64,000 nt of DNA from Sialis fuliginosa. Its lineage: Eukaryota; Arthropoda; Insecta; Megaloptera; Sialidae. Numbering within the stretch: the stretch's first letter is position 1; every line of letters begins with the position of its first letter. Positions 11,201 to 38,361 of this stretch are shown here, one piece after another. The stretch is from contig OY540810.1 of NCBI GenBank assembly GCA_961205875.1, positions 28,706,001 to 28,770,000 on the forward strand. Reading direction: 5' to 3'. The translations under genes and the position numbers were made by a program. The notes under the pieces are model-generated. The model did no database searches, was not told the origin of the DNA, and saw only the letters and a list, made by a program, of their open reading frames with translations.

Positions 11201-14200
11201 AATATACTCTGTGTATCTAGGGCAGGGTTCCAGGGAACATCTAATATCACTACACGGTTAGCTGCCGTCATGTTGATGCCCATTCCACAAGCCTTTATCG
11301 ATAATGTCAACATTTTTATGTTACTAGATTCCTCATTAAACTTGTTACATACATCGTGTCTTGTTTTTTTACTTTTAGAACCATCTAACCTGTAAAAAAT
11401 CATAAAATAAAAATTCTACATTAGATTAACACTTTATGTATATACTATATGTATACTATACCTGCTCGTTCATAAGCTTTCAATTTAACCTTAACAATAT
11501 AAAAAAAAGACCCATTTAAATGTTAAATCGCTATTACTTACCTATAATAATCTACGTTCTTAATCCATCGTTTGTTGAGGTTTGATTCTTCAGGACCTTT
11601 TGAAAGAAAGTAGTCAATGGCACACAAAGTGTTAAGAGATGTTGTATAGACTAATAATTTATCCCCAACAGCATCACTCTCGTTCATTATATGAAAAAGT
11701 ATTGGTAATTTGCTGCTTGCATAAAAATTACTTAAGTCTTTTCTACTAAATACACCGTGCCACCACTAAAAGTAATTAATTATCATAAATAAATCTTTGC
11801 ACCATTCAAAAACTAACTCCGCTTTGTCAATTTTCTAATTTCAGTAAAAATATTAATACAGTTATTTCCTGAGTTACGATTTTCGAACTTAACTTATGGC
11901 GCTTTGATTTTAACAATACCGTAATTAAAATATAAAATAACAGTGTTGTTATGAGTTATCAATATTAATATATTAATGCCCGGTATTATAAAGGACCTAA
12001 CAAATTTGTTAGCTAACAAACACTTTCAACTGAGATATCAAACTTATATGACAGTTCTTTTGGAGTTTGTTGATGACTTTGACAAGTTTCGCGCACGCGT
12101 TGAAGGTAAATACAAACGGTATTAAAACAGTGGTGATGTTATGAAAATTATTTTGTACGGTCAAAGATGCCAACTGTGTTACAATTAGTTGAAGTGTCAC
12201 TGCTCTAAATTCCATAACTAATCCATAGATACTAGTACAGTATTAATACCCCATTTGAATGTAATTGCTAGCTAACAAATTTTATTAGGTCCTTTATAAT
12301 ACCGGGCATAAGAGAGAAAGTTTGTCTGTGTGTTTGTGGGTGGAAAATATTGAACAGATTGTGATGAAACTCACAAGTGTTCCTTGAAACCTCAAAAGTT
12401 TTACAGGGTACATACTATCAAGAGCTGTCATAAGTACTCAGTGAAAGTACTTGAAATATCAAATAATGTTTGCTATTTTCAAATTTACTTGAAATAAATA
12501 CTTCAAGTACTTGTTAAAATCAAGTATTAAGTTCAAATATTATGAAAAAATACTTGAAGTATTAAGTACTTCAAGCTGTTTTTAAATGTGAAGTACTTAT
12601 TAAGTACTTCAAGTACTTTACTTGTTAAATTCAAGTATAATGTTCAAAAAGTACTTGAAGTATCAAGTAATTTTTAAATGTACTTGGAATAAAGTACTTG
12701 ATGTAGATAATATCCATTTAAACCTACATTATTTTAGTAACAACATAAACTACTTTTACTTTTTACTTTTCAGACTGTTGTCCATGTTGTCGTATGATAT
12801 AGCTTGACATTTCGACTCCCATGTCAGTTTTCTTCAGAATTGTTTCAGAAACACTTCTGAAGAAGACTATGGACAACGAAATATCAATTTAAGTAATAAA
12901 GAGACATAAAAAAATATTTGAGTTAAAATATATAAATATAGGCAAACCACATTAAATCATTAGTCTGATGAGGGAATGTGGTACTGAGCGTAGCAAGTAT
13001 TCGAATAGATGTATCAACAAGCGAAGAGGAGAGTATAGTTTATTATATTTACCTCAGGCCGAGTTGTTAATTCATTTTCCTCCAATATAACTTTCTTGTT
13101 AACCATAGTTAAAGATATAGGATGAAACCAAATATCCATTAAAATATTATAGTTTTTGAATAAAGATTTGTTTTTTTCAAAAGTTATATTATTTACGTAA
13201 TGTTTATAAAGGGTTGCCTGGATCTCAGATAGTTTTATGGATAGTATGTAATGATTCAATGGAGGTAGACATTCTTCTAAAACTGATTTCTCTACCCGCT
13301 AAAAAATTGCAGAGTATTGTAAATACACAAACTTAATTTAACATATAAATCAATATTACCTGTACGACTCCTGAAACCATGTCGTGTAAAACATGTGACC
13401 TTCTCTTCATTAAATTAATATCATGTTGGTTAGAATCCCGATGCTGCCCGTTAGTTATCGGGTTCACAAAACGGTTATTATACTCTGTATAGCTGCCAAG
13501 AAGGTTTGGTTTCACCAAGTTCACCATTGTGTAGTATTCATTCAGGTTATTCTGCATTGGTGTGCCTGTAAGCATTATCTTACGGCCTGTACGGACGCGG
13601 TTTATCAGTCCTGTTATCTGTGACATCTTATTTTTTAACATGTGTCCTTCGTCACACACTAACAAGTCAGGACCTGGATCTTGAAGAGTGTTCTCATATA
13701 GCTTTTTATATAAGTCAGCTTGATTGTTTGTGGAGTTCTAAAATAATTTTCCATTGTTTTAAAACATCTAAAATTTCAGTACCAGTGTTCCGAAAGTCCC
13801 TATCTATTTATTTATTTAAATATTTATTATTTAACCACTTAAATTAATGTTTTTTTTTTTGAAGAAAAGTGGTAAAAACAAATTATTTTTTTTAACTATA
13901 ATGCACCTGATTGCTTTATTTAATAAAAAATATATTTAATAAGTAAAAAATTAAGATTTTATAAAAAAAAAATTATTTTAATAATTTTAATTAATAATAC
14001 TTTTTCTCTAAAATTTATTGTTATTTTTAAATTATTTTGCACGCTGGAGAGTTCAATACATGAGCGTTATTTTCTTGTGCACAAAAATTGATCATGCCCA
14101 AACTGCGCTCGAATCTGGTCATTTTCATCAGTTTAGTATGCCCGAGCAGATCTCGGGACTGGGCGTTAAGGGGTTAAATAACAAAAATGCTGATCACTTC

Positions 14201-17200
14201 CACATTTTTAATAGTGTGTTTCAAATTAGATTTTTTTTAAATCTACAAAAATCCCCAAAATTTAAAATACACTGATGTTATTGAAAATTATCTTAATTAA
14301 TTTGGACTGTATTGAAAATAATTTGAATCTTTTACAAACATACCTGTTCATTTTTCTTATAAACCGATGTTAACATATTTCTAAATAAAGTATAGCTCAT
14401 TATACAAATTCCACCATACTTTAACCAATGCTGAAGTATGGTGATTCTTTTAGTAAGTTTCTGTACCAGACAGTAGACTTTAAACTTGTTATCTGGTATC
14501 CATCTATCTATTTCAAAATTCCAATTTAAAACAATATTCGAAGGTGCTAATATTAAAACTCTTTTTATGTTTAGAATAGGATGTGAAAATAGAGTATCTA
14601 CTAAAGCTATGACCTAAAAATAAATATTTTGAAATTATTATAATTAAACAGCTGTATATACAGAGATTAAACAATGGTATTAAAATTAGTAAATTGACAC
14701 AAATTGAACTTGGTAGCTCGTCTATACTAATTTATAAAGAAAACAAATTTTTGTGTGTATATGACTGAAGTAATCTCAAAAAATATGGGACCAACACCAA
14801 CATGTTCCTTGAAATCTCAGAAGTACTATAGGAAACAAAACAGCTGATAATGAGCTCATAAACTAGTTGCGCCCGTAAATAAAAATGCACAGGCCATTGT
14901 AGAGTTCAATTAGTTCTACTAATTAAGTCACTGTAAATATTTTTTATACAAAAACAGATGTTGCTGCGCATTGTCTATTTTGAACCTGCATTATCTCAGT
15001 AAAATCACTTTTCAGATATAAAATAACCAAGTTAAAAAATAAATGCATCAATAGGTGGAGGGGGGAGCATCAAACAATATTGTGTACATTTATCGATTTT
15101 AAAATATATGTGAGCGAAGCCACGGAGAACTGATAGTATATAGATATTTTTACTAACCTGTAATGTTTTTCCTAGCCCCATACAATGTGCCAAAACACAA
15201 CCTGACCCTTTCTTTTCTTTTAGTGTTGTTTTCACTGTTTCAAAACATGTATTCCACATGAACCGTATACCATCTTTCTGGTGAGGTTTAAGTTCAACTG
15301 TCAGTTCAGACGATACGGATATCACAGGCTCTTGCGTTTCTAGATTGTATTCCAAGACTAGCCTATCTGGTACAAATCCAGATGAAAATTTTTGACTTTC
15401 GATTTCATTGTACTGAAAAGATAAAAGATGAATCAGGATAAAATAATTATAAAAATCAGTCTCTCATTTACCTATGTAACTAAGTCCACAAATTGGTATA
15501 TAACTGCTTCATACGATTTTAAAGCTTGTAGTTTCAGTTTCAAAATTATTTTTTTAGATTGTATCTGTGATTATTTTTCACTGAATTACACAGGTCAACA
15601 GCATTTTTGCGGCCGAGACTTGTAGTAATTTTTTAATTACAACCAAAAAAATTTGTTTTCTGCTAAAAATAGTTTTGGTAGATTTTATATTTATAATATA
15701 TATATACAAAATTGTTTTCTTTGTACCTAAATCCAGTCATTAAAAAGTTACTTGAAGATTTAATTTAATTTGAATGATAGGTTACAACTTTGTATTAACG
15801 TCGCTGGTGGACATTTTTGAACAAAGAAATTAATTTTTATGTATCATTTTGTTTATTTAATTTCGAGATTTTTATGTTGTTAAAGTTTGTAAGTTCTAGT
15901 GAATTGTTTTATGGATTATAATAAAGTTGTATTGTTTTTATAAAACATGTTAAGATTTTTAAAATCTTTAAATAACTCTTTAAATGCTGGATTAAGGTAT
16001 AGAACATAGCTTATAAAATGTTTAGAATTGAATAGGCAATTCGAAAATGTAAAAATATATAGGGTGTTCCATTTGAAAAAAAAAATGGGTTTAGAGTTTT
16101 GATACATTCTGTACAAAGAATACAAACTTGTAAATGTTTGATATAATATCGCAATAATAGAGCATAATATACCAAAACTATTTTTAGCAGAGAACATGTT
16201 CTCTTTAAAAGTTATATTCTGGCAACCCAAAGTGCAGGGCTAAATGAACCTTACTATAATGTTGTAAATATAATAAAATCTTCAAGCCAGTGTATCTTGG
16301 CAAAAACAATCATACAATCTAAATTAAAAATTCATTTTAAAGAGGAAAGATAGTACTATTTGTTACTGCAAATGAAAACTTTAGAAAACAATTGCCTGCA
16401 TAGTAATTTATAGTAATTTATTCATAAATTGCCCAAAGTTGTCATTTTTGGTGTTTTTAGGTTAAGGATAAGATTTGGAGAACGGATTTAGTTACAGCAC
16501 TCAAAAAACCTTCAGGATTGTCTATTCAAGTCTTGGCCACAAAAGTATGTTTTTATTGCCCAGTGTTATCAACTTTAAAACAAAAACAATCTTCAGAACT
16601 TTTCAAGCTTTTTAAATGTAAATAAATCATCATGACATTTCTAGTCAAGTGTATTATATATCGGAGGGATCGGTTAATAATCATAAAAAAATAAGAATAT
16701 AAATATTTTACATTTTGGCTTTGCTTCTGTAGGCGTTCTATTCTTTCTCTTTCTAGTTTGTTAGCTTCTTTAGATGATTCTGTTAAATCTTCATCGGATA
16801 TTAAATTGCGTATATTTCTTCTCCCTTTTTTAGACAGACTTGTTTCACTTTCTTGTATTATCACATCATCTTCATCACTTGATATTAAGTATGTTGGATC
16901 ATCTGAATTGGTTGATCTAAAATTTATAAAAATCACAATTATTTATAGCAACGATATTTTTGCTAAAATTACATTATAATTAATTTCTCAAAAACGTTGT
17001 TATAAATATTGATAAGATTTAAAGCATCAACATATTTTTTATTATGAATATTACTTACATTTTATTTGTTGAAGTCAGTTTGTCATCACTATCTTTTGAT
17101 GTTCTACAAGGATTTTTTAATAACGGATCATCAAGCCAACTAGGTCTACTTTTGTCATCAGCTTCATCTTCAGTATATTCTCCTTCTTTATCGTCTATAT

Positions 17201-17394
17201 CTTGTTCTTCTTTTTCAGATTTCTGTTTATCAGAATCCTAAGAAATATATTAATGAGTATAAAATATCTGCCTTGGGAACCACGGGACTTTCTTATATGT
17301 AATCCTAACAGTGAATAGTATACGTGATTCTTATTTTATTAAAACATTTCTGACAAACTAACAAGATATATCCCATTATAATATAAACATGTAA

Positions 17395-17465
<71 letters not shown>

Positions 17466-19854
17466 CACCAAACTGAACCATTTTATTGCAAACTTCTGAT
17501 TCTAACCTTTCTCTTTTTACGTTTCTCTTCATTTTCTTCACTACATTTTGAAGAACACGAAGAGTCACTAAGCATATTTAGATCATTATCTTGACTGAAT
17601 TCAACTATTGATGAATTTATTGAATTGTCTGAATCATAGTATAATTCATCATAACAATCTGATAATATGTCCGATGATATGTTTGACTCCTCTGATTCAC
17701 TGGAATCATTACGTTTTCTTTTCTTCCTTTTGAACTGTATGCTTCTGTCTGAATTTTCACTGTCACTTTTGTCATCTGATGTCTTACGTTTTAATGTAGA
17801 TAAATTAGTCAACCTTGAAAATAAAAATGGTAAAAATTTGAATCACATATATAAAATTAAAGGCAATTAGCTATTCCGTGGCATTTAGAGAAATTTGCAC
17901 TTTACAAATTTATCACTAAGAGAAGACTTACGTAGACTTAAAATATAATTTTCCTAATAAATAATAGATTTTCCTAAAGAAAAAAGTAAATGCCATTGTC
18001 AGAAAAGCCATTATTTTAATGAAAATATCAAACATTTGACATAAAAATGAACTTACGATAGAAAACCTCATGGCTCTCATGGCAGATATTTTTTTAATGT
18101 CTTTATAAGGTATATTTTTCATGTCATTTTAAAAATTGAAAGGAGGCTAGGATACATGAGTCTTATTAGGTTTTTATTTCAATCAGGTATTTATGTATAA
18201 GAATTCATATATTGACGACTGATTTTAGCAATTTTTTTTAAAATAAATATTATAAGCGCATGAATAAAACCTAATTTGTAGGAACACAATCAACGCACAT
18301 AACGAGGGTTAATATATCTGTTTTCATTTTTATATACATCTTTATAATAAATTCATAATTTAAATATTTTTTATTTTTTATTTTTACTGTACAAAAATAT
18401 ATTATTATACCTCTTTGCTGCATCATTGAAATATCTGACAGCACTATACAATATGGAAGACTAAATTTAAGTGTTCAAAAAATAAAATAAAATTTCTAGA
18501 TTACCGATATAAGTTTTATTATTAAATTTTAAAATAAATTATAATCTCCAGTGATGCAATATTTTTTTATATTTTATTAACGTGTAAGACAGTAGAAAGT
18601 AGAAATAATGTTAGTTTATTGACTTTAGTTAAGTTATTACCTATCTATTAGTTGTCCTTGTGTATCCGTCACATTACTTTCATCAGTTTTTCCATCAGTA
18701 AGCTTCTCAGGATATTTTTTTATATCCTTCATTACAACTTGACAAGTTTGAAGTAATTTTGGATCATTAAATTGTTCCAAATACTGTGTATTAATTTCAT
18801 TTTCTTGCTTGTAAAATTTATCTAATGCATTAATTATTTTTCCTTCTAAAAATATAACATTGAACTAATATCTATGATATATGTCATTTATCAAATCGAG
18901 GATATACTATATTTTCTTTACCTGGCGGGAATTCAGGATCATTTGGTTTCATATACATATTATCTTCAATATCTTTCGAATCGTTGTCACTTATCTCACT
19001 ATCCTCACTAAAACTAAATGGATCAATAGCTAATAACCGGTCCACATAATCTTCATTTTTCTCTTCTGATTCTGCATCACTAAGCAATAACCCTATGTCA
19101 TCGCTTTGTTGGTGATCAGATGAATTACAATTTTCAGCTAGTATTTCATTTATATTATCTTCTCTTGAAATTTCTGTTTCATTAGGATTTGCTACTGAAT
19201 CTTCTTCTTCTTTAACTGTATTGTTGCTAGAATTTAAGTTATTTTTTTCTTTTATGTTTAGAGATAGCTTTAAATTATTTTCTAATATTTCAGTAGCTGC
19301 ATCCCAATCTGCACTCTCCAAAAAATGGCGTGTAATTACATTTCGTACGTTATTTTGATCTTCACTTGTACAAGAATAGAGTTTATCATGTATCATCATA
19401 TTGTCTGCAGTTAATTCAATTTTAATATCACCTTTAAATAATTCAGAACCTGATGAATTAATACCATGTTCTTGAATTTCTATATTATCTTCATTTTGAT
19501 CACTTCTGCTATACTTTTGTTTGAATTTATTGAAGTTTTCAGTTAGTTCATTATCGACATAATAAAAATTTTCAGTTGTATCATTACTAAATGTTTTGAG
19601 TACTTGATAACACTGAACCATTTCTTCAAATGTATGTACATTATTATTGTTAATTTGATAATGTTTAATATTTCGAATTTTTATTATCATCATTGACAAT
19701 ATAATTTTAATTTTCTTAATATATTTACTAGCAATCTTTTCAAATTGTTTTCGGCAATCATCAGTTATCTGTCTAAAATATAAATTATATTAATTCAAAA
19801 ATAATTTGGGCCATCAAAACAATTACAACTTATAACATACTCATGTATTTCCAT
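8234..19854 (-). CDS. XNP: ATRX/XNP SNF2-family chromatin remodeller (one frameshift)
   Basis: Nuclear ATP-dependent remodeller of the ATRX group. Seventeen exons on the reverse strand: 19854-19841, 19772-18922, 18845-18641, 17813-17507, 17237-17059, 16916-16712, 15412-15158, 14613-14344, 13737-13360, 13298-13053, 11766-11542, 11389-11143, 10891-10770, 9795-9548, 8756-8711, 8505-8443, 8384-8234; about 1,336 aa. The first ~590 aa are acidic, Ser/Lys-rich and disordered, without the Cys-rich ADD domain of vertebrate ATRX, as in fly XNP. Motor motifs follow: [13 protein letters not shown], Walker A in [10 protein letters not shown] (about aa 664-672), DEGH Walker B (about 792), LTGTPMQNN, then the C-lobe with [19 protein letters not shown] and [14 protein letters not shown]. 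These resemble ATRX more than the relative ARIP4. All phases agree except the exon 10/11 join, where one extra base in the GGG at 11760-11762 puts TAG in frame. Six exons downstream stay open, so sequence error is likelier than loss. Confidence 0.9.
8567..8689. repeat. Short inverted-repeat element in XNP intron
   Basis: CAGCGGATCTATAG at 8567 is mirrored by CTAGATCCGCCACTG ending at 8689. The CAG...CTG ends suggest a small hAT-like MITE, but the flanking octamers do not match, so the class is unproven. Confidence 0.4.
9071..9414. mobile_element. CGGTT-rich MITE, copy 1
   Basis: An element of ~340 bp lies in the XNP intron at 8757-9547, starting AGGGCTTTGAACCG and ending CGGTTCGAAGCCCTG, i.e. 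inverted termini. Inside, clusters of CGGTTTTCGGTT and TTTCGGTTC recur in both halves. A diverged relative lies at 50700-50985. It has no coding capacity. Confidence 0.7.
9898..10015. repeat. Small hairpin repeat in XNP intron
   Basis: An ~32-bp stretch containing AACATGAAAATTGATAG is inverted near 10000 (CTATACCAATTTTCATG), enclosing about 50 bp. It is MITE-like. No target duplication was identified. Confidence 0.45.
10520..10730. repeat. Truncated relative of the 40971 MITE
   Basis: The segment shares several blocks with 40971-41236, including AGTATCTATAGTAACATGTA, the run before ATCAACCCC, and CTATTCTGAATAACTA with TTGTGACGT. The outer termini of that family (ATACGG...) are not recognisable here, so this copy looks decayed or truncated. 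Confidence 0.5.
11977..12308. mobile_element. 332-bp PIF/Harbinger MITE, copy 1 (XNP intron 10)
   Basis: The termini TGCCCGGTATTATAAAGGAC and their inverse are perfect over ~28 bp. The element is flanked by TAA at 11974-11976 and 12309-12311, the 3-bp TWA duplication of PIF/Harbinger insertion. Two further copies of identical length lie at 20059 and 20399 in the opposite orientation. The ends match those of the large Harbinger relic at 20919-29950, which likely supplied, or shared, the transposase. Confidence 0.88.
12425..12710. repeat. Degenerate AAGTACTTGAA satellite
   Basis: Imperfect copies of AAGTACTTGAAGTA and its complement alternate over ~280 bp in XNP intron 10. The unit is nearly palindromic, so the tract is self-complementary in either orientation. 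No gene is seen in the rest of this intron. Confidence 0.65.
15646..16200. repeat. Inverted repeat within XNP intron 6
   Basis: TTCTGCTAAAAATAGTTTTGG near 15658 is repeated in inverse near 16172. The ~550-bp span may be an old MITE or foldback relic, with no coding capacity. The remainder of this 1.3-kb intron shows nothing else. Confidence 0.45.
17396..17462. repeat. (TA)n microsatellite
   Basis: About 33 uninterrupted TA units in XNP intron 4, immediately downstream of the Lys/Arg-rich exon 4. It is likely length-polymorphic. Confidence 0.95.
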
Positions 19855-20058
19855 TTTATCACGCAATTATTAAAATCTTCGGTACTGATCCTGTGCGGTA
19901 CTGTACAACGCGTATCTATAAAGCACTAAAAACAAATCAAATAAAAAGTACTAATATAGTCTAATTTCTATTTAATTAAGATAATTAACAATTATCACAG
20001 ATCACATGTAAGAAAATTGTTCTATCAGCTGCTTTTAGCCACAGAATAATAAATATTA

Positions 20059-20390
20059 TGCCCGGTATTATAAAGGACCTAACAAAATTTGTTAGCTAGC
20101 AATTACATTCATATGGGGTATTAATACTGTACTAGTATCTATGGATTAGTTATGGAATTTAGAGCAGTGACACTTCAATTAATTGTAACACAGTTGGCAT
20201 CTTTGACCGTACAAAATAATTTTCATAACATCACCACTGTTTTAATACCGTTTGTATTTACCTTCAACGCGTGCGCGAAACTTGTCAAAGTCATCAACAA
20301 ACTCCAAAAGAACTGTCATATATGTTTGATACCTCAGTTGAAAGTGTTTGTTAGCTAACAAATTTGTTAGGTCCTTTATGATACCGGACA
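20059..20390. mobile_element. 332-bp PIF/Harbinger MITE, copy 2
   Basis: Same family as 11977-12308. It is flanked by TTA at 20056-20058 and 20391-20393. One terminus reads CCGGACA instead of CCGGGCA. It lies ~200 bp upstream of the XNP start codon, so it may sit in the XNP promoter. Confidence 0.9.
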
Positions 20391-20398
20391 TTAGCTAA

Positions 20399-20730
20399 TG
20401 TCCGGTATTATAAAGGACCTAACAAAATTTGTTAGCTAGCAATTACATTCATATGGGGTATTAATACTGTACTAGTATCTATGGATTAGTTATGGAATTT
20501 AGAGCAGTGACACTTCAATTAATTGTAACACAGTTGGCATCTTTGACCGTACAAAATAATTTTCATAACATCACCACTGTTTTAATACCGTTTGTATTTA
20601 CCTTCAACGCGTGCGCGAAACTTGTCAAAGTCATCAACAAACTCCAAAAGAACTGTCATATATGTTTGATACCTCAGTTGAAAGTGTTTGTTAGCTAACA
20701 AATTTGTTAGGTCCTTTATGATACCGGACA
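20399..20730. mobile_element. 332-bp PIF/Harbinger MITE, copy 3 (adjacent to copy 2)
   Basis: It is near-identical to copy 2 and in the same orientation, separated from it by the 8 bp TTAGCTAA. It has its own TAA duplication (20396-20398 and 20731-20733), so the pair are two insertions or a transposition-linked duplication, not a simple tandem repeat. The 68-codon frame seen in all copies is an accident of conservation. Confidence 0.9.
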
Positions 20731-21025
20731 TAAGGAAAATTGATATGTATATATTGTACTGAAATTAGCCACGAATATTTGTCAAATTTCATAGACAACA
20801 ATCAACGCACGTGATCTTGACGTGATTTTTGAAAATTTTATAATTTTTTATTCTGTGAATTTGATATCCGTGGTTATATGCACGGGGGTGTCACTCTGGT
20901 GCTAAAACTGGAAACTCATGCCCGGTATTATAAAGAAATTGCATGGGTGCAAATTCGCGTCTGCGCACATTAGCTGTCAAATAACGCTATCAATTGGCAA
21001 GGTTAGTATATGTATAGGTTGCCTC

Positions 21026-22695
21026 CAAGGTTAGTATATGTATAGGTTACCTCAGTAGGTTGTCAAAATCGAGACAGGAGAGAGGGAACTACGTCACACC
21101 GCATGCTCAATTGCTGTCAGTCTATAGTATATCAAATGAATATATGGTAGAGTTCATAGTTTTTTTTATAATATTTTGTGATATTAAGCGATTTTATGTA
21201 AAATAAGATTTTGTTGTTTAATTAAGGTATGTAGCCACTGATTTATGTGTTTTATTTAAATTTTCTCTACATACAATAAGTAACATAATTAAAATTTTAG
21301 ATTATAGATTGAAAAAATGTCGGAAGGTACTGTCAGTATATGCAAAAGTAACTCTAAAAAGCAAAGGAAGAAGATGAAACCATATGAAACGTTAATCTTC
21401 AAAAGAAATGAATCAGAACATGTTATCGTAATGAATGCTGATCACTATACATACATTGACTATATGTATACATTGTCATTGTTCAATCTCCAATCCTGAT
21501 CATTATCTGCTATGTGAGGATTAAAATATAATCAATACAATCATGGCAACTTTAAAAGTCATTTACACAAAATAGGAGTAACACAGTAAAACCATCAGAG
21601 ATCTTCACCACATATAATTTTCACGTACTCTCTATGATATTGCTTGAAGACATCTACAGGACACAATATTAATCTACCAATATCTGTAGACTCACTTTTA
21701 GCCACGGAGAAACAATGGAATTACGAAGTGATTGTAGCATTAATTAAATGAGGTTATTCGCAGCGTACATGATGACAGCGCTAAGTAGCATTTACGACTT
21801 TGGCGGGCTAAAATGAGAAGTATGTAAACAAATAATTTCAATAAAATATCACAATATATATAAATATATATTTTAGATAATTCTTTATGACTATAGTGCG
21901 GTTAATCATATTGACCTTTCTATTTTCAGTTAAAAATAAGCCCGCCACAAGTTCCCTCGGCGCTGTAATCGATTTAGTTTCTCCCGTTACCTGCTTCGCA
22001 TCCAGCAAATAATAAATATTTTATTTAAAGTAGACAGTACAGACATAATAATAAATTTAAAATAATTACTACCTATTATTAGACATAATATAAAGTAAGA
22101 AATAAAATATATTGTACTTAATTTAAGAATTTATATATTAAATTTGTATATTGTTGATATTAATGTAATACATAAATGCCAAAATAAACTTATTGTTGGT
22201 AGGTAAGTAGTCGTATCAATTCATGGTTTTACATTCTTATAAGAATGCTATATATAATAATATATAATATAGCTTTCCAGCAGTTGTGAGAAACATGCCG
22301 CATCCCAATTAAAAATATATATAAGTGCCTTAAAAATAAAAACTAAAGTATCATTAAGATTTATGAGCTTACAATCAATAACTAATAATAAGAGTTTACT
22401 TTTACATGCATTTATTTTTTTATTTTATAATACTTCAATAATAAATAATTACGATAGTTTTATTTATATTTTAAATATTATATGCAATGATTTGTGCTTT
22501 TGTAATTACATGTATTGTTAAAATAGTTTAAAATATCCAAAAATTCGAAATAATACGATGACAACGTTTAATAAATATGTATTTGCAAGCCACTTTCCTG
22601 TATTACATTTAAATCAGCATGCGGTGTGACGTAATTCCCGCGCGGGCGCTGATTGGTCAAAACTACTGAGGTAACCTATACATATAATAACCTTG
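21026..22695. mobile_element. 1,670-bp MULE-like element, copy 1 (nested)
   Basis: The termini CAAGGTTAGTATATGTATAG and inverse extend imperfectly to ~100 bp, both ends including TACCTCAGTAG and ACGTCACACCGCATGC. A perfect 9-bp duplication GGTTGCCTC (21017-21025, 22696-22704) shows insertion into the related element around it. A copy of the same length lies at 34252-35921 and reads as identical wherever I compared them. It holds a 60-codon frame (21317-21499, starting MSEGTVSICKSNSKK) of unknown meaning and no transposase, so it is non-autonomous and recently active. Confidence 0.85.
21317..21499 (+). CDS. 60-codon open frame in MULE-like element (doubtful)
   Basis: Starts MSEGTVSICKSNSKKQRKK and is Lys-rich, then Tyr/His-rich. 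The same frame recurs at 34543-34725. Because the two elements are nearly identical, preservation is no evidence of selection. I recognise no family. It could be the 3' end of a captured host transcript or chance. Confidence 0.2.
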   Translation: MSEGTVSICKSNSKKQRKKMKPYETLIFKRNESEHVIVMNADHYTYIDYMYTLSLFNLQS

Positions 22696-23432
22696 GGTTG
22701 CCTCATAACTTTTTGACCAATCAGCGGCTGCGTGTGATGACGTCACCCTGAGGAACCTTTAAACGTAGTTTCATATATTAAGTTTTTTTTCAAATTATTT
22801 CGAATTTTTGGATATTTGTATTTAAAAAAAGTAAATATTATTGTTTATTACAGAAGCACAAATTATTACATATAATATTTCTTCATAAAAACTTTAAAAT
22901 GATGTCAGAAATCAATGCTTAAAGAAAATACATTTATTGGTTACACATAAAAAAACACTTGTTTAAAACTATAATTTATAATAATAAAATAATAAAAATT
23001 TAGATTTAAAACTCAGTACACTATCAATATCAAATGAAAATATTTAAAAACAACTTACAATAAATCAGCTTAACTAAAATAAAGAGTAAATATAGTTTGA
23101 CAGCCATTTATAATGTCAATGAGTTCCTCACGATGACGCGTTCTCCCCTCTCATGCCACTCCCCGCCAGAGTTATGAGGCAACCTATTACTTTACTAACC
23201 TTGATCAATTGGGTATTAAATTGGTACGAAATTGCTCGATATTTTAAAGCAGTGGTAATAAATAGACACATAATAATGTAATCGATGCATGTACATTATA
23301 TGGGTTTACACAAATGTGTATTTTAAGTCTGTGATGTGTTTATACATATTGCATTTAAATTGACACATAACCTAAGTATACGATATTAATGTACAAAAAT
23401 ATAACGTGTTGTGGTAAAAATTGAAAATTAAA

Positions 23433-23729
23433 ATGCCGGTAAGTAGTAAATATACTTTTATATAACACATTCATATATATCATAGCTCTTTAAAGCAATT
23501 CCTGCATTTGGAATTTTTTACAAAACGCTTGAAGATGAAAAACATTGTTTACTTTTAATTGTCACATAAAATTTATTTTTATATTATACTTTTATAATAT
23601 ATAGTATTTATCTCAACTTTTTGTATATTACAGAAACGTTTCAAAATGTCATCAATTTCATCTGTATCATCTGGACATTTTATATCACATGAATATTCAG
23701 TATTATTTTCAGATAACTTTGAAAATAAC
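23433..23729 (+). pseudogene. PIF/Harbinger transposase, N-terminal remnant
   Basis: ATGCCG at 23433-23438 is followed by a GTAAGT donor, and a second exon starts at 23634 after TTACAG. This reads MPKRFKMSSISSVSSGHF and ends DNFENN at the insertion point of the Foldback-like element. Across that insertion (from 28249, using one copy of the duplicated 9 bp) the frame continues with an IPREP motif, a stop, then RRNDP, the usual N-terminal flavour of Harbinger transposases. The DDE catalytic region is not recognisable. Broken by insertion, stops and deletion. Confidence 0.55.
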
Positions 23730-23739
23730 GGGTTCCGGT

Positions 23740-24100
23740 CAATTTATCGTAAACAGTTTATCGTAAACAGTTTATCGTACAACAGTTTATCGTAAAACAA
23801 TTTACCGAACGAACAATTTATCGTATGAACAATTTACCGTAAGAACAATTTATCGTAAAACAATTTATCGTAAGAACTATTTATCGTATGGACAATTTAC
23901 CGTAAGAACAATTTATCGTAAAACAATTTATCGTAAGAACAATTTATCGTATGTACAATTTACCGTATGAACAATTTATCGTAAAACAATTTATCGTAAA
24001 ACAATTTATCGTAGAACAATTTATCGTAAAACAATTTATCGTAGAGCAATTTATCGTAAAACAATTTATCGTAAAACAATTTATCGTAAAACAATTTATG
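23740..24100. repeat. Left 15-bp subterminal satellite of the Foldback-like element
   Basis: Tandem variants of CAATTTATCGTAAAA; subtypes read AAACAG, AGAACAATTTACCG and ATGGACAATT. The mirror-image array lies at about 27870-28235. Confidence 0.9.
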
Positions 24101-24339
24101 TATTATTACTGTCACAGACTCCACTGGACTTTCTTATACGTATTAAGGTCAAATCAATTATGAAAATATTATATAATATATTATTATATAGAAACCTTGT
24201 TTTCTAATTTTATCAATTAAAAAAAATGTACAGATGCGTATTAAGTTAGATTTTAGGCCCAAATTATTAAAATAATAAATACACATTACATATAAATAAT
24301 ATATATAAACCTTATTTATTATTTAATCAATTAAAAAAA

Positions 24340-25640
24340 AAATGTACAGAAGCGTATTGAGTAATTATTGAGACCCGTGTATTAAACTAATTAATAAACT
24401 CACAACTCGCCCCCTGTCACAGATGGAGGGTTGTAACTGGTCTCATTGGATCCGGCGGGAAAAATACTATAGGATTCTAGGGGGATGGGGGGCAAAACAA
24501 CCCTCTATCTAGCACAGGAGTCGAGATATTTACGATTTTCTGTAATGAATACCATAAGTAGCGAAACAGAAAAATTCAATATTTACAATAAATACTGCAT
24601 ATAAACATAAGGTATTATTATTTAATTTAATAGAATGAAATAAAAAGTTCAGGCATGTATTAAGTGATATTTTAGGCCCGTATTGTTAAAACAACAAATA
24701 CACATATGTATATAGAAACCTTGTTTATAATTTAGTCAGTTAAAAATAATTGTACAGAAGCGTATTGAGTGATTTTTGAGGCCCGTGTATTAAACTAATT
24801 AAAAAACTCACAAATCGCCCCCTGTCACAGATAGAGGGTTGTAACTGGTCTCATTGGATCCGGCGGGAAAAATACTATAGGATTCTAGGGGAATGGGGGG
24901 CAAAACAACCCTCTATCTAGCACAGGAGTCGAGATATTTACGATTTTCTGTAATGAATACCATAAGTAGCGAAACAGAAAAATTCAATATTTACAATAAA
25001 TACTGCATATAAACATAAGGTATTATTATTTAATTTAATAGAATGAAATAAAAAGTTCAGGCATGTATTAAGTGATATTTTAGGCCCGTATTGTTAAAAC
25101 AACAAATACACATATGTATATAGAAACCTTGTTTATAATTTAGTCAGTTAAAAATAATTGTACAGAAGCGTATTGAGTGATTTTTGAGGCCCGTGTATTA
25201 AACTAATTAAAAAACTCACAAATCGCCCCCTGTCACAGATGGAGGGTTGTAACTGGTCTCATTGGATCCGGCGGGAAAAATACTATAGGATTCTAGGGGG
25301 ATGGGGGGCAAAACAACCCTTTATCTAGCACAGGAGTCGAGATATTTATGATTTTCTGTAATGAATACCATAAGTAGCGAAACAGAAAAATTCAATATTT
25401 ACAATAAATACTGCATATAAACATAAGATATTATTATTTAATTTAATAGAATGAAATAAAAAGTTCAGGCATGTATTAAGTGATATTTTAGGCCCGTATT
25501 GTTAAAACAACAAATACACATATATTAAATAGAAACCTTGTTTATTATTTAGTCAATTAAAAATAATTGTACAGAACCATATTGAGTGATTTTTGAGGCC
25601 CGTGTATTAAACTAATTAATAAACTCGCCTCTGTCACGTG
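24340..25640. repeat. Left 408-bp tandem array
   Basis: About three complete units plus a partial, each containing TCTCATTGGATCCGGCGGG, CTATAGGATTCTAGGGG and a short inverted GAGGGTTGT/ACAACCCTC pair. The copies are nearly identical. Confidence 0.9.
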
Positions 25641-25899
25641 ATGAAAGAATGTAATATAACATTGTTTTACATTGAACTGTTTACCATAAATTGAACGCAA
25701 ATCGATTAAATAATATTCAATGTTTCTAAATAGTAGGTATACGTGAATTTGTTATTTTAAGAATACAGGCCTATATTATCACTTGATATACATCTGTACA
25801 TTTTTAAAATTTATTTAATTTAGTAATAATATCTAAGGTATATTATTATTGTGTAAGAGGTGGATATTGATTTTGTTTCTTTTTCACTATTTATTCATT

Positions 25900-27870
25900 A
25901 TAGAAAATCGTAAATAACACGTCACCTATACGAGTAAGGGGGTTGTTTTTAATTAGTTTAATACACGGGACTCAAAAATCACTCAATACGCTTCTGTACA
26001 ATTATTTTTAATTGACTAAATTATAAACAAGGTTTCTATATATGTATATTTGTTATTTTAACAATACAGACCTAAAATATCACTTAATACATGCCTGAAC
26101 TTTTTTTTTCATTCTATTAAATTAAATAATAATATCTTATGTTTCTATGCAATATTTATTGTAAATATTGAATTTTTCTGTTTCGCTAATTATGGTATTC
26201 ATTACAAAAAATCGTAAATATCTCGACTCCTGTGCTAGATAGAGGGTTGTTTTGCCCCCATTCCCCTAGAATCCTATAGTATTTTTCCCGCCGGATCCAA
26301 TAAGACCAGTTACAATCCTCCATCTGTGACAGGGGGCGAGTTGTGAGTTTATTAATTAGTTTATACACGGGCCTCAAAAATCACTCAATACGCTTCTGTA
26401 CAATTATTTTTAACTGACTAAATTATAAACAAGGTTTCTATATACATATGTGTATTTGTTGTTTTAACAATACGGGCCTAAAATATCACTTAATACATGC
26501 CTGAACTTTTTATTTCATTCTATTAAATTAAATAATAATATCTTATGTTTATATGCTGTATTTATTGTAAATATTGAATTTTTCTGTTTCGCTACTTATG
26601 GTATTCATTACAGAAAATCGTAAATATCTCGACTCCTGTGCTAGATAGAGGGTTGTTTTGCCCCCCATTCCCCTAGAATCCTATAGTATTTTTCCCGCCG
26701 GATCCAATGAGACCAGTTACAACCCTCTATCTGTGACAGGGGGCGATTTGTGAGTTTTTTAATTAGTTTAATACACGGGCCTCAAAAATCACTCAATACG
26801 CTTCTGTACAATTATTTTTAACTGACTAAATTATAAACAAGGTTTCTATATACATATGTGTATTTGTTGTTTTAACAATACGGGCCTAAAATATCACTTA
26901 ATACATGCCTGAACTTTTTATTTCATTCTATTAAATTAAATAATAATACCTTATGTTTATATGCAGTATTTATTGTAAATATTGAATTTTTCTGTTTCGC
27001 TACTTATGGTATTCATTACAGAAAATCGTAAATATCTCGACTCCTGTGCTAGATAGAGGGTTGTTTTGCCCCCCATTCCCCTAGAATCCTATAGTATTTT
27101 TCCCGCCGGATCCAATGAGACCAGTTACAACCCTCTATCTGTGACAGGGGGCGATTTGTGAGTTTTTTAATTAGTTTAATACACGGGCCTCAAAAATCAC
27201 TCAATACGCTTCTGTACAATTATTTTTAACTGACTAAATTATAAACAAGGTTTCTATATACATATGTGTATTTGTTGTTTTAACAATACGGGCCTAAAAT
27301 ATCACTTAATACATGCCTGAACTTTTTATTTCATTCTATTAAATTAAATAATAATACCTTATGTTTATATGCAGTATTTATTGTAAATATTGAATTTTTC
27401 TGTTTCGCTACTTATGGTATTCATTACAGAAAATCGTAAATATCTCGACTCCTGTGCTAGATAGAGGGTTGTTTTGCCCCCCATTCCCCTAGAATCCTAT
27501 AGTATTTTTCCCGCCGGATCCAATGAGACCAGTTACAACCCTCCATCTGTGACAGGGGGCGAGTTGTGAGTTTATTAATTAGTTTAATACACGGGTCTCA
27601 ATAATTACTCAATACGCTTCTGTACATTTTTTTTTTAATTGATTAAATAATAAATAAGGTTTATATATATTATTTATATGTAATGTGTATTTATTATTTT
27701 AATAATTTGGGCCTAAAATCTAACTTAATACGCATCTGTACATTTTTTTTAATTCTTAAAATTAGAAAACAAGGTTTCTTTATAATAACATATTATATAA
27801 TATTTTCATAATTGATTTGACCTTAATACGTATAAGAAAGTCCAGTGGAGTCTGTGACAATAATAATACA
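25900..27870. repeat. Right 408-bp tandem array (inverted)
   Basis: Four units of the same 408-bp repeat in opposite orientation to 24340-25640. The two inner copies are almost identical, which suggests recent unequal exchange or copying between arms. Confidence 0.9.
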
Positions 27871-28248
27871 TAAATTGTTTTACGATAAATTGTTTTACGA
27901 TAAATTGTTTTACGATAAATTGCTTTACGATAAATTGCTTTACGATAAATTGTTTTACGATAAATTGTTCTACGATAAATTGTTTTACGATAAATTGTTC
28001 ATACGGTAAATTGTCCATACGATAAATTGTTCTTACGATAAATTGTTTTACGATAAATTGTTCTTACGGTAAATTGTCCATACGATAAATTGTTCTTACG
28101 ATAAATTGTTTTACGATAAATTGTTCTTACGGTAAATTGTTCATACGATAAATTGTTCGTTCGGTAAATTGTTTTACGATGAACTGTTTACGATAAACTG
28201 TTTTACGATAAACTGTTTACGATAAATTGACCGCAAATCGAAAATAAC

Positions 28249-28500
28249 ATTCAAATACCAAGAGAACCTTAGGTGTTCATAGAAGAAATGATCCAATCCT
28301 AATGATTGAAAAAAAGATTAAAAAATGAGCATCAGAAGGTGGCTGGGAAATGATAGATGTTCGAAAAGTGGTATAAGTATACGGTAAGAAGCAAATTTAC
28401 AAGCGTCATAAGGTGGTTTGGATACAGCAGAAGCTGATCAAAAAGCAGCATTATGTATATAAAGGAATCGAGAGCAGTGGAGAAGATATTCAGCCGTATT
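28249..28500 (+). pseudogene. Displaced continuation of the Harbinger transposase
   Basis: Downstream of the Foldback-like insertion the frame from 23634 resumes as IQIPREP, then an in-frame TAG and frame changes around VHRRNDPILM. No catalytic DDE motif can be read in the ~300 bp that follow, so the element lost the core of its transposase as well as being interrupted. Confidence 0.4.
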
Positions 28501-28810
28501 CATAGTTCCTCCTTGTTACTAAATTTACGTTTCATAAAACTTCCTTGACTACGAAGGCTTCCTTATCTCAAGGTTGATCGGAAGCTTTCTTAAGGCAGCT
28601 TTGAATACAATTTTAACTGTAATGCTGACAATGTGTATATAAACATAACATAACATAAAAGTAGTTACACATTTCAATCTGTAGCTTTGTGCTGTCATTA
28701 TTTTTTTAGACAAAGCGAATAAAAGAAAAAAAAGATAATGGACAATAAATTTAAAAAAAACACTTTATTTATAAACTAAACATTATTAATAACATAACAC
28801 TAGTAAGTTA

Positions 28811-29560
28811 CTAAAAAGTCCTAAAATATTCATTACTTCTAGAAGGAAACCTTGAGATCTGTCTATGAAACAAGGGCGCCTTGGATATCTGTGATAGCCT
28901 TGATCGAGGTTTTCTCCAACCTTGCGATAAGGAACGATTATGATTACGGCTGATTGGAGATGAGAGTACTTGAGATAAAACATAAGTATATTGCGATGCT
29001 CTGTTTTGTAAATCAATCTGAAAATAAATGTATAATATTGATTAAAATGTTTTTATTATTGCAATGTTATGATTGGTCTTACAAATATTATTTCGTTGTC
29101 ACTGCTTTTCTCTAATAAGGCATCTGAAATAAAGAAAAATTAAATTAATTGATATTTTAATTATATATAAATGATAAAAAATTACCAAAAAACAAACCGA
29201 AAGATGCACAGCTACCAACAGGATTTTGTAGCTCCCTAGTTTTATTTCCAATTGTATGTAAAAAAAATTCGTCTTATAAAATCTATATTTTTTTTAATGC
29301 ATCTATAAAATTAATTCAATTAGTAATTTGTTAGTAAAACTTATTTTATAATAATTAATTACCTTCTCATCCGCACAATCTTTCTTGGCTTTTTTTTTAA
29401 TACTTTCGTGAAGATTTTTTAATTGAATACCATTACGTACTTGGCCTGTCTTTGTAATATTATTGAACTCGCTAGCTATTTCATTCCACGTTTGATTTTT
29501 TTTATTTGTAGTTACTAAATCGGTTGTCTTATTTTCGATAATATCTATGCATTTTAACAC
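28811..29560 (-). pseudogene. Myb/SANT-like (zeste-type) accessory gene of the Harbinger element
   Basis: Four reverse-strand exons keep phase: 29560-29363, 29231-29186, 29123-29083 and 29017-28811 (stop TAG). The first encodes a Myb/SANT-like block (IIENKTTDLVTTNKKNQTW, NGIQLKNLHESIKKKAKKD) as found in zeste-type regulators and in the second protein of PIF/Harbinger transposons, which helps the transposase enter the nucleus and bind DNA. The last exon is Ser/Arg-rich and basic. No ATG opens the first exon: the upstream segment has stops and apparent frameshifts, so I regard the gene as decayed at its 5' end. An unseen upstream exon is the alternative. Confidence 0.6.
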
Positions 29561-30314
29561 CGCTTATCATTATCACACTGTATCCTTTTTCTCTCATTTT
29601 AATTTCTTTTTATATACTTAAATAAACTCTTCATCAAAATAAGTACTTATTATAGTATTTTGATTTAGTTGTTTATCATAATAAAGAAATGTCAAATTGA
29701 ATAGTTTCCTTTTAGTGACATTGACTAGAAGTCTATTTTTTCTGTATATCACAAAATCACAACAGCTTTTAAGACTGCTGATTTCTACTTAATAACACGC
29801 ATGCGTGAAAGTCATAATATCTACGATTTCATTGGCTACATCTTTGCGTGATTGTCATTTACATTTAATACCCAGTAGATAGCGTTATTTGACAGCTAAT
29901 GTGCGCAGGCGCGAATTTGCACCCATGCAATTTCTTTATAATACCGGGCATTATTCTGTGAAAATGAGATGAAATGGTTATAATTAAATTTAATTAATTA
30001 ATTTGGTACTTCTCATTAGTATTTTATAATACAACTTATTGGTGAATATGTATTTTCCTGTGTATTTTACAATACTCTGTAACTATAAATGGTAGTTATG
30101 GTAGGTGATTGTAGAGTGATTGTAAAGTGATCACAGAGTGATATTTATTTAAATTAGTTACATATTATAAAACGTCAATTTAATGTCAAAAATTGAAGCT
30201 GTTAAGTTGTATAATAAAATTTATTATTTTAATTAATGGATACTAATGAACAATCAAATAAAATTTAAATGCAATAACTACATATTAATATAATTAACAT
30301 TTTAAAATATCATA

Positions 30315-32004: not shown

Positions 32005-33019
32005 TCGGTCATTCCATAAATAACTACACACTTTTTTTGTTGTTGTTACTGATTTTTTTAATTTTTACAAATGTTTTAGTACTAGTTAAAAGAAGATTTT
32101 TAACGGTACTTAAAAATCGAAAAAAAAATTCCCCCCAAAAATATCGACTTTTGAAAATTTCACTTTTTTTTAAAACGAAATATCTCAAAAACTATCAAAG
32201 ATAACGTAAAAATACAAGAGATTAATTTTGTAGGAAAATGTATATAATTTATTTTAAAAAATATTTTGCTGCACAAAACTTTTGTTTAAATATATTTTTT
32301 TTATTTATAAAATTTTACAGAAAATTTGGGGCACATATCAATTTTGAATTTTAAAAATAAAAATACATGTTGTAGCTTACTCATTCCTGAGTATGTTGCA
32401 CTTTAAAAATTTATGAACATATGAAAACTTTATGAAATATTAATTTTTTTAGGTAACGACGCCCGAGTCTTAGCGCGCTTGCTTGGACGTATCACTGCAG
32501 TAAATGTTGAACGCTCCGGCACAGTCGCGCTGTGATACGTCCAAGCAAGCGTGCTAAGACTCGTGCGTCGTTACCTAAAAAAATTAATATTTCATAAAGT
32601 TTTCATATGTTCATAAATTTTCAAAGTGCTACATACTCAGGAATGATTAAGCTACAACATATATTTTTATTTTTAAAATTCAGAGTTGACATGTGCCCCA
32701 AATTTTCAGTTAAATTTTATAAATAAAAAAAATATATTTAAACGAAAGTTTTGTGCAGCAAAATATTTTTTTAAATAAATTATATACATTTTCCTACAAA
32801 ATTGATCCCTTGTATTTTTACGCTATCTTTGATAGTTTTTGAGATATTTCGTTTTTAAAAAAAAAGTTAAATTTTCAAAAGTCGATATTTTTGGGGGGAA
32901 TTTTTTTCGATTTTTAAATACCGTTAAAAATCTTTTAACTAGTACTAAAACATATGTAAAAATTTAAAAAATCGGTAACAACAACAAAAAATGCGTGCAG
33001 TTATTTATGGAATGACGGA
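32005..33019. mobile_element. 1,015-bp palindromic mariner-type element
   Basis: Nearly the whole element is one inverted repeat: ends TCGGTCATTCCATAAATAAC and inverse, TA at 32003-32004 and 33020-33021 as Tc1/mariner duplication. At the centre, 46-bp GC-rich arms (about 32456-32501 and 32534-32579, including GATACGTCCAAGCAAGC) flank a ~35-bp spacer unlike the AT-rich rest. There is no transposase frame. Confidence 0.85.
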
Positions 33020-34251: not shown

Positions 34252-35921
34252 CAAGGTTAGTATATGTATAGGTTACCTCAGTAGGTTGTCAAAATCGAGA
34301 CAGGAGAGAGGGAACTACGTCACACCGCATGCTCAATTGCTGTCAGTCTATAGTATATCAAATGAATATATGGTAGAGTTCATAGTTTTTTTTATAATAT
34401 TTTGTGATATTAAGCGATTTTATGTAAAATAAGATTTTGTTGTTTAATTAAGGTATGTAGCCACTGATTTATGTGTTTTATTTAAATTTTCTCTACATAC
34501 AATAAGTAACATAATTAAAATTTTAGATTATAGATTGAAAAAATGTCGGAAGGTACTGTCAGTATATGCAAAAGTAACTCTAAAAAGCAAAGGAAGAAGA
34601 TGAAACCATATGAAACGTTAATCTTCAAAAGAAATGAATCAGAACATGTTATCGTAATGAATGCTGATCACTATACATACATTGACTATATGTATACATT
34701 GTCATTGTTCAATCTCCAATCCTGATCATTATCTGCTATGTGAGGATTAAAATATAATCAATACAATCATGGCAACTTTAAAAGTCATTTACACAAAATA
34801 GGAGTAACACAGTAAAACCATCAGAGATCTTCACCACATATAATTTTCACGTACTCTCTATGATATTGCTTGAAGACATCTACAGGACACAATATTAATC
34901 TACCAATATCTGTAGACTCACTTTTAGCCACGGAGAAACAATGGAATTACGAAGTGATTGTAGCATTAATTAAATGAGGTTATTCGCAGCGTACATGATG
35001 ACAGCGCTAAGTAGCATTTACGACTTTGGCGGGCTAAAATGAGAAGTATGTAAACAAATAATTTCAATAAAATATCACAATATATATAAATATATATTTT
35101 AGATAATTCTTTATGACTATAGTGCGGTTAATCATATTGACCTTTCTATTTTCAGTTAAAAATAAGCCCGCCACAAGTTCCCTCGGCGCTGTAATCGATT
35201 TAGTTTCTCCCGTTACCTGCTTCGCATCCAGCAAATAATAAATATTTTATTTAAAGTAGACAGTACAGACATAATAATAAATTTAAAATAATTACTACCT
35301 ATTATTAGACATAATATAAAGTAAGAAATAAAATATATTGTACTTAATTTAAGAATTTATATATTAAATTTGTATATTGTTGATATTAATGTAATACATA
35401 AATGCCAAAATAAACTTATTGTTGGTAGGTAAGTAGTCGTATCAATTCATGGTTTTACATTCTTATAAGAATGCTATATATAATAATATATAATATAGCT
35501 TTCCAGCAGTTGTGAGAAACATGCCGCATCCCAATTAAAAATATATATAAGTGCCTTAAAAATAAAAACTAAAGTATCATTAAGATTTATGAGCTTACAA
35601 TCAATAACTAATAATAAGAGTTTACTTTTACATGCATTTATTTTTTTATTTTATAATACTTCAATAATAAATAATTACGATAGTTTTATTTATATTTTAA
35701 ATATTATATGCAATGATTTGTGCTTTTGTAATTACATGTATTGTTAAAATAGTTTAAAATATCCAAAAATTCGAAATAATACGATGACAACGTTTAATAA
35801 ATATGTATTTGCAAGCCACTTTCCTGTATTACATTTAAATCAGCATGCGGTGTGACGTAATTCCCGCGCGGGCGCTGATTGGTCAAAACTACTGAGGTAA
35901 CCTATACATATAATAACCTTG
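34252..35921. mobile_element. 1,670-bp MULE-like element, copy 2
   Basis: Same length as the nested copy at 21026-22695 and visually identical throughout. Its own 9-bp duplication GATAGTGGA lies at 34243-34251 and 35922-35930. The CAAGG...CCTTG termini are perfect. Both copies carry TTGACCAATCAGCG context (on the reverse strand near the right end) and ACGTCA near both ends. The 60-codon frame recurs at 34543-34725. Confidence 0.9.
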
Positions 35922-36712: not shown

Positions 36713-38361
36713 ATGTCTGATAGTGATAATTCAGATTCTGATTCTGGTATCCGTTATAAAACACAGAGTGTTAGAAATGCCGAAGATATAGAAATTACTA
36801 AATTAGAACATAAAAATAAGTATTCTAGACACAAAGAAGAAAATAAAGATGATAGTGATAATACACATGAGTCAACTTTACCAGCACATTTAAGAAAAAA
36901 CAACGATAGTTCTAGTTCACATTTAATTTCAGATGATTCTAATGAATCAATCGAGCCAAAAATTTGTGGCCCTACTATGCCTCAGTTTAATAAAGATAAA
37001 TGTAGTTCAGATGATTCTAATGAATCAATTGATCCTAAAATTTGTGGTCCAATTTTACCTCCTCATTTAAAAAAAGATAAAAATAATTCAGATGATTCTA
37101 ATGAATATTTTGGACCAAAAATTTGTAGTCCAACTTTGTCTCCTCATTTAAAAAAAGATAAATATAGTTCAGATGATTCTTATGAATCCCTTGGGCCAAA
37201 AATTTGTGGTCCAGCATTACCTCCTGACCTGGGAAAAGAAAAAAATACTTGTTCAAATATAACTTCAGAAACCAACTCGGATGATTCTAATGGATCTTTT
37301 GAATCAAAAATTTGTGGTCCAGTTTTGCCTCCTCATTTAAAAAAAGATAATTCAGAAAACATTAATAAATCCATTGAATCAATTACTGAAACAAAAGAAT
37401 CAAAGAAAGTTGATACTAAAATATATGGTCCTATAATTCCATCCCATTTAAGAAATAATATAGAAATTAATGTTTCAAACAAAACTGTGAGCAATACAGA
37501 TAAATCGGAGGAGAGTGATTCCGATGATGATATGATAGGACCGTTACCTGCTACAATTCAAAAGAAAAGTAAAAGTACTATCGAGTTAGAAGAGAGAGCT
37601 TTAGAAATAAAACTCAACAAAATGAACCCTAAACCAATTGAAACTGTCCGTGAGGAATGGATGTTAGAATTACCTGATGTAAAAGTACCATCTTTAGGGT
37701 TAGGTTCACGGCAATTTAAAAATAAGGAAGGGCCAGATTTTAGTGATAGAACTTCATGGACAGATACACCAAAAAGTAAAATAAAGAAGGAAAAGAAAAA
37801 TGATTTGAAAGAGGAAACTAAACTGGAACATATGAGAAAAAGAGATCTAGAACAAGAGGCGATGATAAAGAAATATAAGAAACATAAAAATAATGATTCA
37901 CTTTTGGATTTACACCAGAAGAAGTTATCAGAACAGGTAATGTAAAAAATAATACACTAATTCTAGGTTTTTAAATATAAAACAGCATTTGTGACAAGGC
38001 TTAAAGATGATGTTTACTGTTATGTGTATAAGATGTTTAGAGTTCAAAACAATTAACTCGTTTTTCAGTAAACAACAAATATACTTTTTTTTTCAATTGA
38101 AAAATACTTTATATTCCATATCCAAAAATTTAATTAAATTCATAATAAAAATGTTTTATTATTCTAAAAATGCAATTTAATTAATAAAGATAATATGATT
38201 TTCAGAAAAAGAAGTCAGACGAAAAACCAGAAAGAACACCATTTAATCGGGATACTGATTTAAAAGTAAATAGGTTCGACGAAGTGCAAAAAAAATCTAT
38301 TATAAAAAAAGCAATGCATCTAGATGATAGATTTTCAAGTGGTCAATCAAAATTCTTATAA
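36713..38361 (+). CDS. GPALPP1: GPALPP motif-containing protein 1 (DUF3752)
   Basis: Two exons, 36713-37936 and 38206-38361, join in phase 0 to 459 aa. The C-terminal DUF3752 region is clear: REEWMLELPDVKVPSLG, SRQFKNKEGPDFSDRTSWTD, then RTPFNRDTDLKVNRFDEVQKK and a tail ending SGQSKFL. The N-terminal half is a disordered Ser/Asp/Lys-rich region in which a ~30-aa unit (SDDSNES, then KICGPxLPPHLKKDK) is repeated about five times from aa ~75, followed by two degenerate versions (KIYGPIIPSHLR, MIGPLPATI). Vertebrate GPALPP1 has only a few spaced GPALPP motifs. Molecular role poorly known; probably nuclear. Confidence 0.92.

Follow-up and report, generated by a model that had tools for sequence, protein, structure and literature searches.

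A two-branch nest of young DNA transposons in a PIF/Harbinger copy of Sialis fuliginosa

The genome of Sialis fuliginosa holds, in a stretch of 64,000 nucleotides (the window: contig OY540810.1, C2:28706001-28770000, of assembly GCA_961205875.1, 392 Mb in 20 contigs), a nest of four mobile DNA elements between positions 20919 and 29950. The host is a PIF/Harbinger-type element (Harbinger below). Within it lie two related elements with 9-bp target site duplications (TSDs), here called outer and inner, and an element of Foldback structure. These are four separate insertions, contained in one another as a first-pass annotation had read them from the sequence, and uninterrupted copies of the hosts in the same genome support this. 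The best explanation, to which we give a probability of about 93%, is a nest of two branches in a young Harbinger copy, with a Phantom-type MULE transposase as the likely source for the Foldback. The nesting of DNA transposons is common, and the main value of this one lies in its controls, the youth of its layers and the Phantom-like Foldback.

Uninterrupted hosts, order and age

The elements of the nest and their duplications are as follows.

20919-29950, no strand: PIF/Harbinger-type non-autonomous element, host of the nest, terminal repeats TGCCCGGTATTATAAAG.../...CTTTATAATACCGGGCA; uninterrupted copy at L009
20989-20997, plus strand: left 9-bp duplication of the outer element, ATCAATTGG, exact, inside the Harbinger left terminal repeat
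20998-23203, plus strand: outer 9-bp-TSD element, 2,206 bp, or 527 bp once the inner element and one TSD copy are removed
21017-21025, plus strand: left duplication of the inner element, GGTTGCCTC, exact, equal to positions 20-28 of the outer terminal repeat
21026-22695, plus strand: inner 9-bp-TSD element, 1,670 bp, longest stop-to-stop frame listed 82 aa
22696-22704, plus strand: right duplication of the inner element, GGTTGCCTC, exact
23204-23212, plus strand: right duplication of the outer element, ATCAATTGG, exact
23721-23729, plus strand: left duplication of the Foldback, GAAAATAAC, exact
23730-28239, no strand: Foldback, 4,510 bp, arms 98.5% identical over 1,895 bp
28240-28248, plus strand: right duplication of the Foldback, GAAAATAAC, exact

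The annotation had proposed a three-level nest with 9-bp duplications, and all three are exact and lie where it had placed them; the length of 1,670 bp that it gave for the inner element is also confirmed. For two random 9-mers from the window the probability of agreement is only 4.1e-5, so the three 9-bp matches at element ends are not due to chance. It had further claimed that removing each insert with one duplication restores the terminal repeats, and had named intact copies of the inferred hosts as the thing to look for. Such uninterrupted genomic copies, the decisive test of host restoration, are present for both the Harbinger and the outer element, and they bear the claim out. Emptied of its inserts and one TSD copy each, the Harbinger is 2298 bp long (9032-2215-4519). 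The uninterrupted Harbinger at L009 (C1:16641019-16643316) is exactly 2,298 bp, with five substitutions and no indel relative to the three window pieces. For the outer element, the terminal repeat is unbroken at the point of inner insertion in all ten copies sampled, and the copy in L018, 98.6% identical, is exactly 527 bp long.

In our reading a PIF/Harbinger copy, young and non-autonomous, received two independent cut-and-paste insertions. In one branch the 527-bp element entered the Harbinger left terminal repeat, and the related 1,670-bp element then entered the terminal repeat of that element. In the second branch the 4.5-kb Foldback entered after position 596 of the empty 2,298-bp host. 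The order of Harbinger, outer, inner on the one side and of Harbinger, Foldback on the other is fixed by the sequence, and here the claim of the annotation holds. Across the branches it does not: the order is a partial one, since nothing tells whether the Foldback arrived before or after the outer and inner elements. Ranking it by divergence was considered and rejected, as every layer is too young.

The description of these elements as relics is misleading, since every layer has copies 98-100% identical elsewhere in the genome, and the Harbinger host is a young non-autonomous copy. With two close copies (L033 and L026) and one further copy (L031) as references, four of the five substitutions fall on the window branch and one on the L009 branch; L026 ends with its fetched stretch, and its gaps after 29774 are not data. 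Because L009 is without the insertions, they are later than the split from it, and the four window-branch changes in 2,298 bp (0.17%) set a ceiling on their age. At a Drosophila-like rate of about 3e-9 per site per generation, the insertions are at most of the order of half a million generations old. Gene conversion between copies could give a false impression of youth. The nest thus preserves a clean trace, exact to the base, of how four families of elements were recently active in this genome, and its relative timing is testable because uninterrupted host copies exist. Transposition-in-transposition (TinT) chronology reportedly uses nesting to order the activity of families; here there is a single locus, backed by uninterrupted copies.

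The Foldback and a candidate transposase source

The Foldback has long inverted arms made of tandem repeats, a short spacer and a TSD. Its plan is a 7-bp end, GGT, a 15-bp array, a 408-bp array and the spacer, followed by the mirror image; the arms are about 1.9 kb in an element of 4.5 kb. The arrays are:

23740-24099, plus strand: left subterminal 15-bp array, 23.5 units
24300-25626, plus strand: left 408-bp tandem array, 3.2 units
25946-27669, minus strand: right 408-bp tandem array, 4.2 units
27870-28229, minus strand: right subterminal 15-bp array, 23.5 units

The subterminal units are spaced at 14-16 bp, with one gap of 29. The two 7-bp ends are unlike, GGGTTCC and GATTTGC (the right end read on the minus strand), and the same pair occurs in all eight copies read, that is, the window copy and seven others picked for complete arms on both sides. 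Their TSDs are 9 bp in six copies and 8 bp in two, the latter read by eye. The family has at least 411 matches in the genome, many of them an arm followed directly by its mirror, and the best non-self match to a 1,846-bp query is 99% among the matches listed. The 408-bp unit is also present as a free tandem array at L076 6221-7982 (about C1:36878720-36880481), with 4.3 copies of 407 bp at about 90% identity and no mirror arm within the fetched 9 kb.

Two unlike 7-bp motifs, a 3-bp motif and short tandem units (13-16 bp) are the features of Phantom/Tm1-type ends. As described in passages on Tm1, this is a Mutator/Foldback family of root-knot nematodes in the Phantom subclass, with a 9-bp TSD, mostly non-autonomous copies and a FLYWCH+MULE transposase; its ends have two unlike 7-bp motifs outside the inverted repeat, a 3-bp motif and tandem units of 13-15 bp, and one Tm1 element is shown with another element nested in it (PMC3169594). 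The Foldback shares with Tm1, as far as these passages go, the 9-bp TSD, the unlike 7-bp ends, the 3-bp motif, the short tandem units and the mostly non-autonomous copies, and differs in the motif sequences and in the 408-bp arrays that its arms also hold. It is a further case of the plan of unlike ends and short tandem units described for Tm1. Passages on Tetris, a Foldback element of Drosophila virilis, describe long arms with an internal tandem unit of about 220 bp, a TSD of 8-10 bp, non-autonomous copies with no autonomous one found, and the unit also as free tandem arrays (PMC4079207). Long arms with an internal tandem unit, the TSD, the non-autonomous state and the occurrence of the unit as a free array are thus common to both, whereas the unit is 408 bp here and the Tetris passages are without 15-bp subterminal arrays.

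Since none of the elements of the nest shows a transposase gene, each probably depended on a transposase supplied from outside it; which transposase moved which element we infer. The genome has ten MULE-domain matches, and sequence was fetched around four of them (on C8, C7, C11 and C10). Two are uninterrupted FLYWCH+MULE frames, at C8:1324415 (479 codons) and C7:18231595 (482 codons), 95% identical to each other. Downstream of both lies sequence resembling the Foldback arm; it extends over 869 bp on C8 and, up to the end of the fetched stretch, over 115 bp on C7, and the two loci are also alike in this region. We found none of it at the MULE loci on C11 and C10, in window positions 1-20000 or 30001-64000 or at ten Harbinger loci, and three shuffled queries gave no match on the C8 stretch. 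This is suggestive of a link between the FLYWCH+MULE loci and the Foldback, which was likely moved by a Phantom-type MULE transposase (FLYWCH plus MULE). The genome would then hold both the Foldback and a plausible Phantom-type source for its transposition.

Several observations weigh against the nest and its proposed movers as we read them. The arm-like sequence beside the FLYWCH+MULE frames is diverged, with a resemblance of only about 67-83% that covers the arm alone and not the ends. As far as the fetched sequence reaches, these loci have neither Foldback ends nor a 15-bp array that belongs to them; a single Foldback end is present on the C8 stretch, as part of a Foldback copy some 1.4 kb upstream. 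The stretches around the four MULE matches yielded no transposase enclosed by two Foldback ends, unlike in Tm1, and no terminal repeat of the outer or inner element. The free array at L076 has no transposase seen nearby. Because the Foldback is abundant and its unit also forms a free array, the arm-like neighbourhood may be due to chance or to one duplicated locus. At the edges of the nest, the 3-bp flanks of the window Harbinger do not match (TCA on the left, TTA on the right).

An alternative is that the Foldback owes its movement to a transposase other than a MULE one, just as Galileo relies on a P-type transposase. Passages of the Tm1 paper state that the Foldback form arises in unrelated superfamilies (PMC3169594), and both the low resemblance at the FLYWCH+MULE loci and the presence of arm-like sequence away from any transposase seen would fit this. 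The 9-bp TSD, the unlike 7-bp ends and the short tandem units, in so far as Tm1 is described, argue for the Phantom type instead, as do the arm-like sequence at both FLYWCH+MULE loci, its absence from the control stretches and the match of the two loci in that region. We therefore regard a non-MULE mover as unlikely.

The outer and inner elements and other explanations of the nest

The outer element (499 bp searched) gave 41 matches in the 40 candidates that were scored out of 658. Forty are full-length at 99-100%, the window's own included, and three of these, again counting the window's own, are at 100% over the 499 bp; the remaining match is 82 bp at 77% within the inner element, whose terminal repeat is nearly that of the outer one. 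For the inner element, where 40 candidates out of 784 were scored, there were 119 matches, and 34 of these, with the window's own included, are at least 1,626 bp long. Three inner copies are identical, namely one at L056 and the two in the window, the second of which is:

34252-35921, plus strand: second inner copy, 100% identical, TSD GATAGTGGA, in the same orientation 13.2 kb away

Among 22 inner copies read, two of them in the window, the TSD is 9 bp in 17, 8 bp in one and 10 bp in one, and three have none; eight of the ten sampled outer copies have an exact 9-bp TSD. The term MULE-like, as applied to this pair in the annotation, stands as far as the TSD of 9 bp (8-10) goes (inner 19 of 22, outer 8 of 10) and not in the sense of a transposase gene linked to the ends. 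No Pfam domain above the curated cut-off was found in the inner-element frames, and a literature search on the element termini yielded, judged by title, no transposon work.

The nest or part of it may instead have formed at another place and reached this site as a unit, by movement or copying, in which case the order it records would not be local. The TCA/TTA flanks could then mean that the outermost ends come from different events; the annotation had given these letters as the 3-bp Harbinger site, and they are as it read them, without being an exact duplication. We compared them with the other copies at loci L009-L043 that have both ends 2.0-5.0 kb apart, cut or otherwise spaced copies being excluded (27 rows, or 26 distinct copies, one being read on both strands). 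The flanks match in 22 of these, 20 of them of the form TNA, and mismatch in four; the mismatch in the window is therefore not special. Among the Harbinger loci L001-L043 only the window copy carries any of the three inserts at the corresponding positions, though some copies are cut by the fetched stretch or are without the site, and the genome locus list is a lower bound. In the first 75 loci the Foldback occurs only at the window's own locus and as an array at L047. Movement as a unit is thus very unlikely.

An assembly artefact, with repeats collapsed or mischained, is very unlikely too. All layers are repetitive and have near-identical copies, which is the hardest case to assemble, but each of the three inserts is bounded by an exact TSD at either end, and the host lengths match independent copies to the base. 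That the 28-bp doublet at 20998-21053, which Tandem Repeats Finder calls a 28-bp tandem repeat with 96% matches, is a local tandem duplication of the terminal repeat rather than an element in an element can be rejected, given the different bodies that follow the two 28-bp units, the exact 9-bp TSDs in 17 of 22 inner copies at mostly unrelated sites and the 10 of 10 sampled outer copies that are uninterrupted at that point.

With the nest read as successive insertions, its inner branch raises the question of kin-targeting. At L057 185-2409 (C1:36881000-36883500) GGTATAATG is present three times, bounding an outer-type and an inner-type copy side by side, so that one 9-bp site was hit twice. The two outer-type copies at L077 (one at 93%; the other at 98%, over 252 bp only) stand head to head 5 bp apart. 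One host flank is common to L018 and L070, and another to L065 and L101. Of the 17 inner duplications, 12 have G as their first base and 13 have C as their last; the bias is weaker in the eight outer duplications, with G first in four and C last in four. We tentatively speculate that the family of 527-bp and 1,670-bp elements seeks out its own kind, with a transposase that reuses or prefers 9-bp sites with G first and C last in or directly beside the ends of its kin. This would yield the nest in the terminal repeat in the window, the triplicated site at L057 and the pair at L077. An excess of kin proximity over chance is not established, because the loci were chosen for holding elements and the outer family is abundant. 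If the idea is true, nesting would be a targeting habit rather than an accident, and damage to host genes would be limited.

The Harbinger host and the surrounding sequence

The coding remnant of the Harbinger is:

29303-29563, minus strand: Myb/SANT-like Harbinger remnant, PF13873, E 4.3e-11, in the same frame of L009:507-767

Among the Harbinger and inner-element frames compared with Pfam, this match is above the curated cut-off in the L009 frame and in its L017 homologue; the other matches, with E values of 0.06-0.18, were set aside as chance. Fourteen stop-to-stop frames of at least 50 aa in L009 have no Pfam domain other than Myb/SANT and no PF13359-type DDE transposase, and those that span the Foldback site have no Pfam domain. 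The annotation had placed the Foldback in the Harbinger transposase; these frames give no support for this, as their sole domain is the Myb/SANT remnant, about 1 kb away from the Foldback. Non-autonomous PIF/Harbinger elements have a 3-bp TSD of TNA type and a remnant of the Myb/SANT partner protein. The host element is like them in both (the TSD being that of the 22 matching copies) and differs in its terminal repeats of about 80 bp or more and in having no transposase domain in the 14 L009 frames.

An insertion with an 8-bp TSD in a 2.7-kb Harbinger subfamily was considered and rejected; the 2.3-kb form is instead without about 420-520 bp, and it looks like a deletion form of the 2.7-kb one. 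Another Harbinger copy (L013) contains a different insert at about 4695-6950, some 2.3 kb in length and with ends CCCAGTAATCGAAAAAGTAATC. The sequence to the left of the Harbinger (20880-20905, GGGGGTGTCACTCTGGT) recurs at C1:14284118 (L099), where it is split by an outer copy, so the Harbinger may adjoin or lie within a further repeat.

Two 332-bp elements with Harbinger-like ends lie at 20059-20390 and 20399-20730, 8 bp apart and different at one base; the pair is flanked as TTA..TTAGCTAA..TAA, and a third relative stands alone and inverted at about 11977-12308. The domains in six long window frames scanned include SNF2, U-box, WD40, dynamin and DUF3752, and the window is therefore genic chromosome. 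Window positions 32164-32863 hold a 335-bp inverted repeat, 95% complementary, with a 30-nt spacer, and an 81-bp repeat of 3.7 copies at 36928-37225 lies within a 410-codon frame with the DUF3752 domain.

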